Source: Robiginitalea sp. (GTDB taxonomy: Bacteria; Bacteroidota; Bacteroidia; Flavobacteriales; Flavobacteriaceae). Taken from it: DNA of 64,000 bases. Made by a program: the position numbers and the translations under genes. The notes beneath the pieces are model-generated. The model was given only the letters and a program-made list of their open reading frames with translations. It did no database searches and was not told the origin of the DNA. The DNA is taken from assembly GCA_024638915.1 (NCBI GenBank), contig JAHEJJ010000008.1, positions 1 to 64,000 on the forward strand, in the 5' to 3' direction. This document shows positions 14,613-18,046 of the stretch, one piece after another (the first letter of the stretch is position 1; the number at the start of each line of letters is the position of its first letter).

Positions 14613-16496
14613 TTAATAGAGTACCCTGAATTTAATCGTATGATCTACTTTTTTTAAGGCCTTAATCACCTCCTTATTGTAATCTTTATCAAGATCCGTA
14701 ATTACATATCCCACTTCTGAATCCGTAGAAAGATATTGGCCTGAAATATTCATTTCATAATGAGCCAAAACCTCATTGATATGCGCCATCACTCCTGGAA
14801 CGTTTCTGTGAATATGCAGGAACCGATGTGCATTTTGCTGTTTGGGCAGTCTGATGTTAGGAAAGTTTACCGCGTCAAAAGTATTGCCCGAATTAACATA
14901 GTCCATGATCTTATTCGGAACGAAATCGGCGATATTACGTTGCGCTTCTTCAGTACTACCACCGATATGAGGCGTTAGAATAACGTTGGGTAGCCCTTGC
15001 AGTTCACTAATATATTTTCCGTTGCTCTTGGGTTCGTCGGGGAAAACATCAATGGCTGCCCCCATCAGTCTGCCTTCTTTAAGCGCCTTGGCTACAACAG
15101 GTATATCGAGTACAAACCCCCTTGATAAATTAACGAGAAAAGCGCCTTTTCTCATCTGATTGATTTCCCTTTCCCCTAGAAAATTATGATTGGCAGGATT
15201 GTCGTCGATATGAAGACTAACCACATCCGATACATTGAGCAGGTCTTCCAGCGTATCGCATTTTATCGCGTTACCCAGTGCCAGTTGGTCGTTGATATCG
15301 TAGTAATAAACCCTCATACCCATAGCCTCGGCCAGTACTGAAAGCTGCTTACCGATATTACCATAACCAACGATACCCAGATTCTTTCCTCTCACCTCCC
15401 TGGAATGCGCTGCTGTTTTATTCCACCTGCCCGAATGCATCTCGGTACTTCTGGGGAAAATAAACCTCATCAGCATAATGATCTGTCCTATCGCCATTTC
15501 CACTACCGAGCGGGTATTACTGTAAGGAGCGTTGAAGACCACAACCCCGCATTTCTTGCAATAATCAAGATCGATCTGGGCGGTGCCGATACAGAATGCC
15601 CCGACCACCAATAATTTATTGGCTGCGTCCAGAACTCTTTTGGTGACCTTAGTCTTAGATCGGATCCCCAAGACATGTACCCCTCTGATCTTCTCTATGA
15701 GTTCTTCTTCTGTAAGACTTTTATCTACCAGTTCAACAGCAAAACCGTCTTCAGAAAGATTGTCGAAGGCTACCGGATGAACGTTCTCTAGGAGTAATAT
15801 TTTTATTCGGTTTTTGGGATACGACAGGCTACGCGGTAGATCATTTACGAAGAGAAATTCATCGAGATTAGGGGTAACATGATCCGCATTATCGGCCGCC
15901 TTATCCCGATGCACGTTTTCGGTATAGGCAAAAAATTTATGAGCAATACCAGCTTCGCGCATTACATAATCGCTGTAACCATCACCGATCACCTGTACCT
16001 CTCCCTGAAGATCGAGTTGCTTTAGGCATTCTATCTTTCCGTTGTGGGTAGCCAACACATTGGCTTCATCGAAGCCAATAATATATCCTTCATCATCAAA
16101 TTTGAAGGTATTGGCATAGACACGATCTGAAGGGATATTGAATTCTTCTACGATCGGGTCGATGAATTCTTTAAATCCGCAGGAGATGACATAAATATCA
16201 TCCGAGAATTTCTCGAAGAATTCTTTATTGGCCGATATGGATTTTGATATCTTTTGACGCAGTTCTTTGACCAACGGTGGCAAATGATCCTGATGTGCTT
16301 TCAGCAGTCGGATCCTGCGTTCCAGCGATTCCGTAAAAGAAATGTCACCGTCAATACCAAGATTAGTGACTTTTTGTATCTCATCGATCACCTCCTGCCT
16401 GTTAACACGGCCCTGGAGACTCATTTCGGCAAGCACGTCGAGTGCTTCCACCCTTGTAAGGGTGCTGTCAAAATCAAAAACATATTTCCGACCCAC
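14613..16496 (-). CDS. serA: Fused phosphoserine phosphatase / D-3-phosphoglycerate dehydrogenase
   Basis: 627-residue two-enzyme fusion. Residues 1 to about 220 form a HAD-type phosphoserine phosphatase: nucleophile and acid in FDFDST (D8, D10), substrate-binding Glu at 17 and Arg near 60, VISCGF with Ser 105, Lys 154, and GDGYSD (171-176; usual form GDGxND). From about 228 the protein is phosphoglycerate dehydrogenase: NAD-binding GYGNIG (377-382), NLSRG, catalytic HIGGSTEEAQ, and a C-terminal ACT domain (about 555-627). It joins the first and last steps of serine synthesis; serC is not in the window. The gene stands alone. Confidence 0.9.
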   Translation of the reverse strand: MGRKYVFDFDSTLTRVEALDVLAEMSLQGRVNRQEVIDEIQKVTNLGIDGDISFTESLERRIRLLKAHQDHLPPLVKELRQKISKSISANKEFFEKFSDDIYVISCGFKEFIDPIVEEFNIPSDRVYANTFKFDDEGYIIGFDEANVLATHNGKIECLKQLDLQGEVQVIGDGYSDYVMREAGIAHKFFAYTENVHRDKAADNADHVTPNLDEFLFVNDLPRSLSYPKNRIKILLLENVHPVAFDNLSEDGFAVELVDKSLTEEELIEKIRGVHVLGIRSKTKVTKRVLDAANKLLVVGAFCIGTAQIDLDYCKKCGVVVFNAPYSNTRSVVEMAIGQIIMLMRFIFPRSTEMHSGRWNKTAAHSREVRGKNLGIVGYGNIGKQLSVLAEAMGMRVYYYDINDQLALGNAIKCDTLEDLLNVSDVVSLHIDDNPANHNFLGEREINQMRKGAFLVNLSRGFVLDIPVVAKALKEGRLMGAAIDVFPDEPKSNGKYISELQGLPNVILTPHIGGSTEEAQRNIADFVPNKIMDYVNSGNTFDAVNFPNIRLPKQQNAHRFLHIHRNVPGVMAHINEVLAHYEMNISGQYLSTDSEVGYVITDLDKDYNKEVIKALKKVDHTIKFRVLY

Positions 16497-16654: not shown

Positions 16655-17356
16655 TTAATATGAATGAACATAAAGAAGTCCTGCCAAAACGGCCAATCCG
16701 AAACTGAGCAAGGTCCCGATGAGAATATATTCAGTGAGTTTTCTGCTGTTGCTCTCTTTAAGGTCGTTGAATCGGAAAACAGACTTGGCAGTAATCAGCA
16801 ACCCGATAGCCTCCCAGCGTCCCAGAATAATGAAAATCAGTACGAAAAGACGTTCGATAATGCCTATATACTTACCAGCATTAGGCAGGGACTTATGATC
16901 GAGCTCGATCTGTTCCGACATATTTTCCAACAATTTGCTCATTATAATGGCCGAAGGATAGGTCACAAAAACAATAGCCGTGATCAGGGGCCAGTCGATC
17001 TGCTCCCATAAGGTCGCAATGGTCTCCCATAGATTTCCAAAGAAAGCGCATGCAAAGAGCACTGCAAGATGCAGCAGCTGATCGATAAGGAAGGGGTATA
17101 ATTTATTTTTGAAGAGTGAATTCGCATACAGCTTAGCCAGATCGATCAGGTAATGAGATATTGCGATAACAAGGGCCATCTTCCAGAATGATAGGTCCCA
17201 TAGCAGCAGCATCATCAATCCATAATGAATGACGATATGAGCGTATAGGAATCCGGAACGGGCCTTATTCGCCTCCTTGTGTATCAGCCAACGTGTCGGT
17301 TGAAATACAAAATCACCCATGAGGTGAGCCAGTAATAATTTGGTAAAAATGATCAT
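16655..17356 (-). CDS. DUF3307 family membrane protein
   Basis: 233-residue polytopic inner-membrane protein with about six or seven hydrophobic spans. The N terminus LLLAHLMGDFVFQPTRW matches the DUF3307 signature (HLxGDFxxQ), followed by HIVIHYGLM and ISHYLIDLAKLY, giving several conserved His/Asp residues in or near membrane spans. Function is unknown. Its ATG overlaps the stop of the upstream satD-like gene (ATGA), so the two are translationally coupled and probably act together. Confidence 0.85.
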   Translation of the reverse strand: MIIFTKLLLAHLMGDFVFQPTRWLIHKEANKARSGFLYAHIVIHYGLMMLLLWDLSFWKMALVIAISHYLIDLAKLYANSLFKNKLYPFLIDQLLHLAVLFACAFFGNLWETIATLWEQIDWPLITAIVFVTYPSAIIMSKLLENMSEQIELDHKSLPNAGKYIGIIERLFVLIFIILGRWEAIGLLITAKSVFRFNDLKESNSRKLTEYILIGTLLSFGLAVLAGLLYVHSY

Positions 17357-17964
17357 GCTTCCAGTTCCTTAATGATTTGAGTATAGTATTCTAACATTTG
17401 TTGTACCAGCAGGTATCGGGCTCTCTTCTGGCGCTGGCTCACCGCCGATTGTCTGATCTTTAACTCATCGGCCATTTGAGACTGAGTCTTATCGGGTGCA
17501 GCCAATGAAAGGGCTATAATTTCGGCCGAAACAGGCGTCCAGTTGTCCATAAAATCAGAAGCCAGATCGATCATTAGATTTAAACTCCTATTCCGATGCG
17601 ACTCTCCGGTGTCTATTCCCATGTTCTTCTTTTGGCTTTTAAGCTTATCGAGCATGCGCCCTGACCTTTGATATGCCGTACCGTTAGACTCGCTTATCCC
17701 GTTACCCCTAAAATCCTCTTCTCCTAAACCTATGGCAATGCGCAGATCCAGATCTTTAATCACCTTTAATCTCGCTTTGAGCTCAAGGGCGATTTGAAGC
17801 GCGCGTTCCGGAGTACATCGAAGTTGAAATTCATCGCCCCTGTAAATCTCCCAATCCCTTGGGGTATCGCCCCATCTGGTAAGGGTTTCTTTGAGGAGTT
17901 GCATCCATTTCGCCGTTTCATGGCGGGCAGAATTAACGATATCTGCTGTGATTATGGCTTTCAT
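17353..17964 (-). CDS. SatD-like regulator: cyclase-like palm plus helix-turn-helix
   Basis: 203 residues. The N-terminal part resembles a compact class III nucleotide-cyclase/palm fold: ITADIVNSA (Asp 8), a second acidic site in YRGDEFQL (Asp 44), a strand RIAIGLGEE, and GTAYQRSGRMLDKLK. The C-terminal 60 residues contain a sigma-region-4-like helix-turn-helix (TQSQMADELKIRQSAVSQRQKRA). The overall pattern, with a DUF3307 gene overlapping by four bases downstream, matches the SatD/DUF3307 pairing known in other phyla. Whether it makes or binds a nucleotide is inference; the family's biochemistry is unknown to me. Confidence 0.75.
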   Translation of the reverse strand: MKAIITADIVNSARHETAKWMQLLKETLTRWGDTPRDWEIYRGDEFQLRCTPERALQIALELKARLKVIKDLDLRIAIGLGEEDFRGNGISESNGTAYQRSGRMLDKLKSQKKNMGIDTGESHRNRSLNLMIDLASDFMDNWTPVSAEIIALSLAAPDKTQSQMADELKIRQSAVSQRQKRARYLLVQQMLEYYTQIIKELEA

Positions 17965-18046
17965 AATAATAAGTGTATATACTAATATATTAAAATATAA
18001 TCTAATTAACTAATATTTAAGTATATTATTGTATTACCTTATAATT
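17965..18046 (-). promoter_or_regulatory. AT-rich control region of the satD-DUF3307 pair
   Basis: Eighty-two bases of almost pure A/T between the satD-like start and the next gene. The 8-mer ACTAATAT occurs twice (17981-17988 and 18009-18016), 28 bases apart, beside the imperfect palindrome AGTGTATATACT. This could be an operator for the helix-turn-helix protein encoded directly downstream, but AT content alone makes chance repeats likely. Confidence 0.3.

Follow-up and report, generated by a model that had tools for sequence, protein, structure and literature searches.

Two overlapping genes lie on the minus strand of the window, a stretch of 64,000 nucleotides from Robiginitalea sp. The first (17353..17964) encodes a SatD-like protein of 203 aa which, according to the list of open reading frames, Pfam and an AlphaFold2 model, combines a palm domain (residues 1-118, 17611..17964) with a C-terminal helical domain of the helix-turn-helix (HTH) type (residues 122-202, 17359..17601). 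The second (16655..17356), recognised from its open reading frame and from Pfam, encodes a DUF3307 membrane protein of 233 aa. The stop of one gene and the start of the other are joined in an ATGA at 17353..17356, as the original prediction had read from the sequence, and this overlap recurs in 36 of the 55 close loci inspected. The motifs on which that prediction relied, ADIVNS (with Asp 8), YRGDEF (with Asp 44), RIAIGLGE and GTAYQRSGRMLDKL, were all found, in the order claimed. Upstream of the SatD-like gene, and on the same strand, a motif scan located three operator-like palindromes of the form TATWAG-N8-CTWATA, each with one mismatch and each 28 bp from the next (17968..17987, 17996..18015 and 18024..18043).

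We speak of a "SatD-like" protein because its score with the SatD family model PF16264 (27.3 bits, residues 7-181 aligned to model positions 6-194 of 211) lies below the curated cut-off of 29; relatives in the same 43-row alignment pass it (L123 with 53.5, L124 with 110.9 and L131 with 55.6 bits). At E 1, neither Guanylate_cyc, nor GGDEF, nor any other Pfam cyclase model matches the SatD-like protein of the window, and no model of PADLOC-DB 2.0.0 matches either member of the pair. The GG(D/E)EF signature is absent from the SatD-like protein, its hairpin reading YRGDEF.

A nucleotide-cyclase-like palm had been proposed from the letters alone, and the predicted fold does contain one. The AlphaFold2 model (83 aligned sequences; pLDDT 96, pTM 0.92) arranges strands 2-10, 38-41, 45-50, 73-81 and 115-118 and helices 17-29, 52-67 and 96-111 as a palm, followed by a C-terminal domain of helices across residues 122-202. 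Structure searches returned class III cyclases, GGDEF domains and CRISPR palms alike. The top solved match in Foldseek was the class III adenylyl cyclase Ma1120 (4wp9; E 7.9e-4, the sole match below 0.001, with a modest TM-score by query, TMq, of 0.39), and other cyclases, GGDEF domains and Cas10-type chains came after it. VIA returned GTP cyclohydrolase III (2qv6; Z 11.2, 108 residues, 2.8 A), Cmr2 (3ur3; Z 11.1, 121 residues, 3.2 A), the GGDEF domain 4zvg (Z 10.7, 115 residues, 2.9 A), OaPAC (4yut; Z 10.6, 134 residues, 3.7 A) and a DinB palm (Z 9.8); since rows within one unit of Z are ties, the fold class is clear and the subfamily is not. Nothing in the viral structure library matched the SatD-like model below E 0.001. 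A profile of the family (alignment A1) gave 23 matches at E 10 or below among the sequences of solved structures, mostly DNA-binding domains over the C-terminal part, with the diguanylate cyclase DosC (E 0.74) over the palm; these matches, the best at 0.03, are at chance level, and sequence kinship to solved structures was dropped for this reason. The C-terminal HTH of the original prediction agrees with the model, in which about 80 C-terminal residues are helical, and with a weak Sigma70_r4 match over this region (E 4.7e-4, 20.1 bits, below the cut-off of 24.1).

In palm cyclases and polymerases, the metal-binding positions are on the first strand and the hairpin. The SatD-like model places Asp 8 on its first strand (codon 17941..17943, minus strand) and Asp 44 on its hairpin, in RGDEF (codon 17833..17835, minus strand). 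Twelve columns are invariant in 28 Flavobacteriales rows. A wider set of 43 rows, selected to span Bacteroidota, Pseudomonadota, a Fusobacterium, haloarchaea and prophage-like contigs, retains only these two as invariant residues, while Ser 12, Gly 43, Gln 47, Arg 75, Gly 102 and the start Met are at least 90% conserved. L009, which was flagged with a stop, and the duplicate L030 were omitted from alignment A1, and L063, for which the start rule failed, from A3. The original prediction had staked itself on both Asp being kept across homologues, as they are in these 43 divergent rows. We consider Asp 8 and Asp 44 to be putative two-metal ligands, their equivalence to the ligands of cyclases being drawn from order and topology in the model.

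Adjacency of the two genes, which the original prediction proposed to survey, extends over several phyla. A SatD-like protein is encoded in 29 of the 60 genomes searched (own genome included), and a DUF3307 frame lies directly downstream in all 29; this frame is broken in two in L012, as it is in L239, and in both the SatD-like gene stays open. Among 80 contigs from named genomes, 79 have an adjoining DUF3307 gene and the 80th ends 77 bases past the SatD-like gene. Starting from the other side, DUF3307 is present in 95 of 395 Bacteroidota genomes, with one copy each, and in 46 of 171 genera; a SatD-like gene is directly upstream in 88 of the 94 DUF3307 regions that remain when our own is left out. 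Of the six others, two have a truncated DUF3307 gene and four an intact one with no SatD beside it. By whole-genome search, no SatD palm was found in G155, G441 (80% complete) or G297, despite their intact DUF3307; G102, where the two are likewise not adjacent, has a divergent SatD palm elsewhere in the genome. In L235, L236 and L240 an intact DUF3307 gene without adjacent SatD lies downstream of a ThiF/MoeB-like gene (identified by eye) in a cluster of the thiamine type, which may possibly represent a separate use of the membrane protein.

The SatD profile matches 128 of the 395 Bacteroidota genomes, more than DUF3307 does. We fetched 40 of the 49 additional matches, mostly divergent, and the partner module (see below) adjoins the SatD-like gene in 35 of these 40 loci. 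Overall a partner is found downstream in 249 of 255 SatD-like loci, which partly overlap (some genomes occur in two sets), are therefore not independent, and partly served to build the module profile; 103 of them (L117-L131, L161-L254) were picked by their DUF3307, and among the loci chosen by SatD the count is 146 of 152. Many kinds of bacteria and some archaea have the pair, and plasmids, prophage-like contigs, a Fusobacterium and haloarchaea are among its carriers; no SatD was found in the 14 named control genomes. Three of the six partner-less loci are contig ends. As for the other three, Asp 8 is replaced by His in L263, Asp 8 by Lys and Asp 44 by Asn in L276, and L300 retains both; partner-bearing loci have Asp 8 in 248 of 248 readable cases and Asp 44 in 249 of 249. 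An Aerococcus relative of SatD (tblastn E 8e-13 to the Fusobacterium SatD) has neither the Asp motifs (by eye) nor the module, and therefore not all SatD relatives can work alike. From these comparisons, in which the numbers are small, the putative active site appears to be tied to the partner. We note in passing that in Aerococcus tenax (L303 4097-7709) ribonuclease and barstar-family genes directly precede a SatD relative without Asp motifs and a DUF975 membrane protein.

The choice of DUF3307 as the partner, made in the original prediction, stands for the window and for close loci, but not for the family at large, where the constant part is the C-terminal module and not the Pfam domain. In the window protein the Pfam domain is N-terminal (PF11750, residues 3-105, 17042..17350, minus strand; 99.5 bits against a cut-off of 23). 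An alignment of 54 DUF3307 rows (50 of the 75 extracted partners of the close clade, the window protein and three viral rows) has invariant polar residues that include H11, D15, Q19, H40, H68, D72, D92, Q93 and H96. We did not adopt a reading of these His and Asp residues as a membrane metal hydrolase, the residue pattern being its sole support. In PHROGs, the window protein matches a "membrane protein" family of the moron category (E 8.3e-14). Its model is all-helical (mean pLDDT 85) and had no Foldseek match below E 0.45, the VIA results being led by serum albumin (Z 7.0); because these matches are uninformative, we assign no fold.

The core of the C-terminal module, as delimited by profile and alignment, spans approximately residues 150-233 (16658..16909, minus strand), carries the pattern G..ER...K...R...Y..G, and has no Pfam match at E 1 in the window protein. 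In divergent pairs this module is preceded by other N-termini or by none: some partners are short, at about 105-115 aa, with two or three membrane helices predicted, and others have a different polytopic N-terminus. They match the C-terminal half of the full-length DUF3307 profile, and PF11750 is silent at these places. The sequence comparisons identify a C-terminal membrane module as what stays constant in the partner, and the Pfam DUF3307 domain as only one of the N-termini that can precede it; this description of the partner is new.

A second element that is new to the reading of this pair is the operator-like array. Of the 80 close loci, 60 have exact copies of TATWAG-N8-CTWATA upstream of satD. 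The 126-bp stretches examined there hold 140 sites, or 13.9 per kb; the remainder of the same loci has 0.002 per kb, and 20 shuffles gave none. Since the pattern was read from the same sequences, more weight goes to a less circular test that accepts any tandem palindrome. By this test, arrays are present in 65 of the 80 close loci (mean of resampled sequence 9.0), in 57 of the 88 phylum-wide loci (6.8), in 24 of the 40 divergent loci (1.4) and in 9 of the 15 plasmid or phage loci used out of 18 (0.2), each mean coming from five rounds of resampling; arrays went undetected in 31 phylum-wide, 16 divergent and 6 plasmid or phage loci. The rule for choosing starts may misplace a few genes, so that these counts are probably low rather than high. 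The period is 28 or 29 in 153 of 155 arrays (20-45 being allowed), and the palindrome itself differs in sequence between lineages despite this common period. Pairs of 20-mers at a distance of 28 or 29 with at least 14 identities were found in 182 of 223 upstream stretches versus 3 of 223 control stretches.

A search of seven genomes gave 18 exact sites, of which 11 are at satD; the other seven are single sites, fewer than the 35 of a reversed control pattern. In our own genome the copies at satD are all inexact and the one exact site lies elsewhere; the window holds two further one-mismatch palindromes outside the array. Among the partner-less loci, the remnant of an array persists in L263, where 15 of 20 positions agree at period 28, but not in L276, where 8 of 20 do. 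Judging from these sequences, the arrays fit autoregulation by the HTH domain, perhaps as an oligomer, and they lend support to the feedback through the HTH that had been suggested for the pair.

The genomic settings are heterogeneous. In the clade of the window, about 60 of 80 contigs share serA-like, PEMT and Ham1 neighbours, a stable synteny that is unlike a typical defence island; in the phylum-wide set the same neighbours are found in 4-7 of 94 regions. The serA-like neighbour (14613-16496, minus strand) encodes a 627-aa chain which, according to Pfam, comprises HAD phosphatase, D-isomer 2-hydroxyacid dehydrogenase (SerA-like) and ACT domains, possibly two activities of the serine pathway in one protein, and it has a match at E 1e-100 in 10 of the 60 genomes (own included). 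By eye, the genes around the 40 divergent loci often resemble housekeeping genes, and those of the pairs in Salinivibrio and Sphingomonas parapaucimobilis are ordinary metabolic genes.

Mobile copies also exist. Three prophage-like contigs of IMG/VR carry the pair (SatD query); a single query with DUF3307 retrieved no contig there, and 50,697 phage records contained no match to a phage-borne SatD, to the window DUF3307 protein or to the Fusobacterium SatD. Among plasmids, for which 15 of 20 matches were fetched, a 3,770-bp E. coli plasmid (pEC34A) has, apart from one short hypothetical gene, no evident cargo other than the pair, and pairs are also present on a 4,424-bp Klebsiella plasmid and on haloarchaeal plasmids. 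In P. fragi the pair lies between two integrase genes, and in E. kobei it is 2.2 kb and one transposase away from a GajB gene. A stretch of a Sphingomonas insulae plasmid (L128 1-9685) brings together, in less than 10 kb, the SatD-like/DUF3307 pair, two genes annotated as an AAA ATPase-helicase pair, a TIR protein, an HTH with an ImmA/IrrE protein, and a Pycsar-type cassette. Neither the E. kobei pair nor the pEC34A pair has a DNA match in complete E. coli genomes. Six of eight plasmid or phage proteins compared with PADLOC at E 0.01 have no match (P0004, P0006, P0007, P0008, P0011 and L111), and the weak matches of P0003 and P0009 are all in the HTH region. The mobile settings suggest some use of the pair by mobile DNA; the defence genes within a few kb of two plasmid copies are anecdotal, and these copies, with the pair as plasmid cargo, are the third new element.

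We think that there is about an even chance that the pair forms a two-gene, self-regulated nucleotide-signalling module, in which the palm protein controls a membrane effector. Starting from what sequences and models display (the fold, the two invariant Asp, the pair itself, the constant module and the operator-like arrays), the module would work as follows. The two-metal palm of the SatD-like protein (Asp 8, Asp 44) would bind, and probably convert, an NTP, and its HTH would bind the tandem palindromic operators, with their 28-29 bp period, before its own gene. The overlapping membrane gene would be the output, addressed via the constant C-terminal membrane module, and the variable N-terminus, which may be the Pfam DUF3307 domain, a different polytopic domain or next to nothing, would set what is done at the membrane. 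It is the metal and NTP chemistry, the binding of the HTH to the arrays and the control of the membrane protein, by a nucleotide or by contact, that we infer. The least certain elements are that the palm would normally restrain its partner, and that the role of the pair would be protection against phages or other mobile DNA. By analogy, restraint would be favoured by the precedent of Panoptes and by a report on the essentiality of satD in S. pyogenes (both discussed below); the genomes with DUF3307 alone speak against it, as does the doubt whether streptococcal SatD keeps Asp 8, Asp 44 and the module. The intact DUF3307 genes of G155, G441 and G297, whose genomes lack a SatD palm, imply that the partner need not be toxic alone, and for this reason we do not make a strict antitoxin our main claim.

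One can also imagine, although we find it rather unlikely, that SatD is a non-catalytic NTP-sensing transcription factor, in which the Asp pair binds Mg-NTP and tunes the HTH on the array, the membrane protein being merely a regulated gene (a transporter or a stress protein). Two invariant Asp would suit NTP-metal binding just as well, and the HTH, the arrays, the 11 of 18 exact sites located at satD and the fact that single sites elsewhere are no commoner than the reversed control pattern are all expected for such a regulator. Taken alone, however, it leaves unexplained that the palm is joined by one and the same membrane module in nearly all loci across phyla, and that two of the three truly partner-less copies have lost Asp 8, one of them together with Asp 44.

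A guard of the Panoptes kind, which is a special case of the signalling module that we prefer, seems to us unlikely. SatD would make a nucleotide that silences a toxic membrane partner, and depletion of this nucleotide by a phage would free the partner and kill the cell. Passages of PMC12657230 describe the same logic as established for mCpol and 2TMbeta, mCpol making the c-di-AMP that keeps 2TMbeta silent, and the presence of the pair as cargo of small plasmids, sometimes near defence genes, would be in keeping with it. So would S. pyogenes transposon data, in which satD, according to passages of PMC11323703, is the single accessory gene (178 of 249 genomes) in the highest essentiality class. 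Against this stand the three genomes with intact DUF3307 and no SatD palm, the all-helical DUF3307 model, which is not of the 2TM-beta type, the doubt whether S. pyogenes satD has this partner or the Asp pair, and the Lactobacillales relative that lacks both. Nonpolar satD mutants of S. mutans are reportedly viable, which also counts against a guard. A broader formulation is, in our opinion, improbable as well: SatD pairs would be a widespread and so far undescribed class of guard systems of bacteria and archaea in which a palm-made nucleotide gates the effector via the C-terminal module, the palm protein meters its own production through its HTH on the operator array, swappable N-termini vary the output, and loss of the nucleotide or of the enzyme, for instance under phage attack, frees the effector.

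We are equally doubtful about a housekeeping module for envelope or acid stress ("secretion and acid tolerance"), spread vertically with occasional transfer. The chromosomal synteny kept in about 60 of 80 close loci and the single copy per genome in Bacteroidota are what one would expect from such a module, but its distribution over genera is patchy and pairs are found on small plasmids and prophage-like contigs; moreover, the acid-tolerance name stems from an operon that also holds ffh. Finally, a chance resemblance, that is, a small ferredoxin-like HTH protein beside an unrelated membrane gene, is very improbable: such folds are common and the TM-scores modest (even for the top match), but adjacency, Asp invariance and operator periodicity across phyla contradict it.

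SatD and DUF3307, two families to which no function is attached, become one testable system whose parts can be named: a pair of candidate catalytic Asp residues, a membrane module that stays constant, and an operator-like array. If the palm is active, such a system may bear on satD being both accessory and essential in S. pyogenes, as stated in passages of PMC11323703. The pair is also compact, as it fits on one 3.8-kb E. coli plasmid. The literature searched, with subscription papers and preprints largely outside its scope, contains no biochemical function for SatD or DUF3307 and no description of the pair; PMC8504454 names DUF3307 in a table row, and PMC10326533 mentions a "SatD family protein". 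Judging by their titles, the papers listed for the name SatD use it in other senses; the one microbiology paper among them, PMC11456916, was discarded, "satd" standing there for "saturated".

Among known proteins, the family takes its name from SatD of the Streptococcus mutans sat operon, and PF16264 covers most of the window protein; the window protein falls under the cut-off of this model, and the Lactobacillales relative is without Asp motifs and module. We know of no function for S. mutans SatD. The CARF-HTH regulators (Csa3/CasR) resemble SatD in joining a ligand-binding-type domain to an HTH, and the plasmid SatD-like protein P0003 has weak PADLOC matches to CasR/CARF/Csa3 models over residues 149-212, the HTH region. 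CARF domains are Rossmann-like, whereas SatD has a palm and a dedicated membrane partner. Class III and GGDEF cyclases share with the SatD model the palm topology and, judged by order and topology, an Asp on the first strand and another on the hairpin, but the SatD hairpin reads RGD(S/E)FQ and not GGDEF, and Pfam matches are lacking.

The closest analogies are with systems that couple a palm to a membrane protein. In Pycsar (PycC and PycTM), a protein with a class III cyclase-like fold acts with a transmembrane partner, and a Pycsar-type cassette lies directly beside the SatD pair of S. insulae. Nevertheless, hhalign of the 43-row SatD-like profile with one Pycsar-type cyclase gave no match, PycTM does not match the window DUF3307 protein (Pfam, E 1), and SatD differs by its HTH. 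Panoptes, like the SatD pair, consists of two genes, for a small stand-alone palm protein and a membrane protein, and, following passages of PMC12657230, is found together with nucleotide-signalling defence genes, a setting shared by one SatD pair. It differs in that the SatD palm is fused to an HTH and its gene has an operator-like array upstream, and in the effector: the 2TMbeta protein of Panoptes combines TM helices with a beta-barrel (PMC12657230, in the same passages), whereas the DUF3307 model is all-helical, with another constant module. If its palm is active, the SatD pair would add a self-regulating member to the palm-plus-membrane signalling represented by Pycsar and Panoptes.
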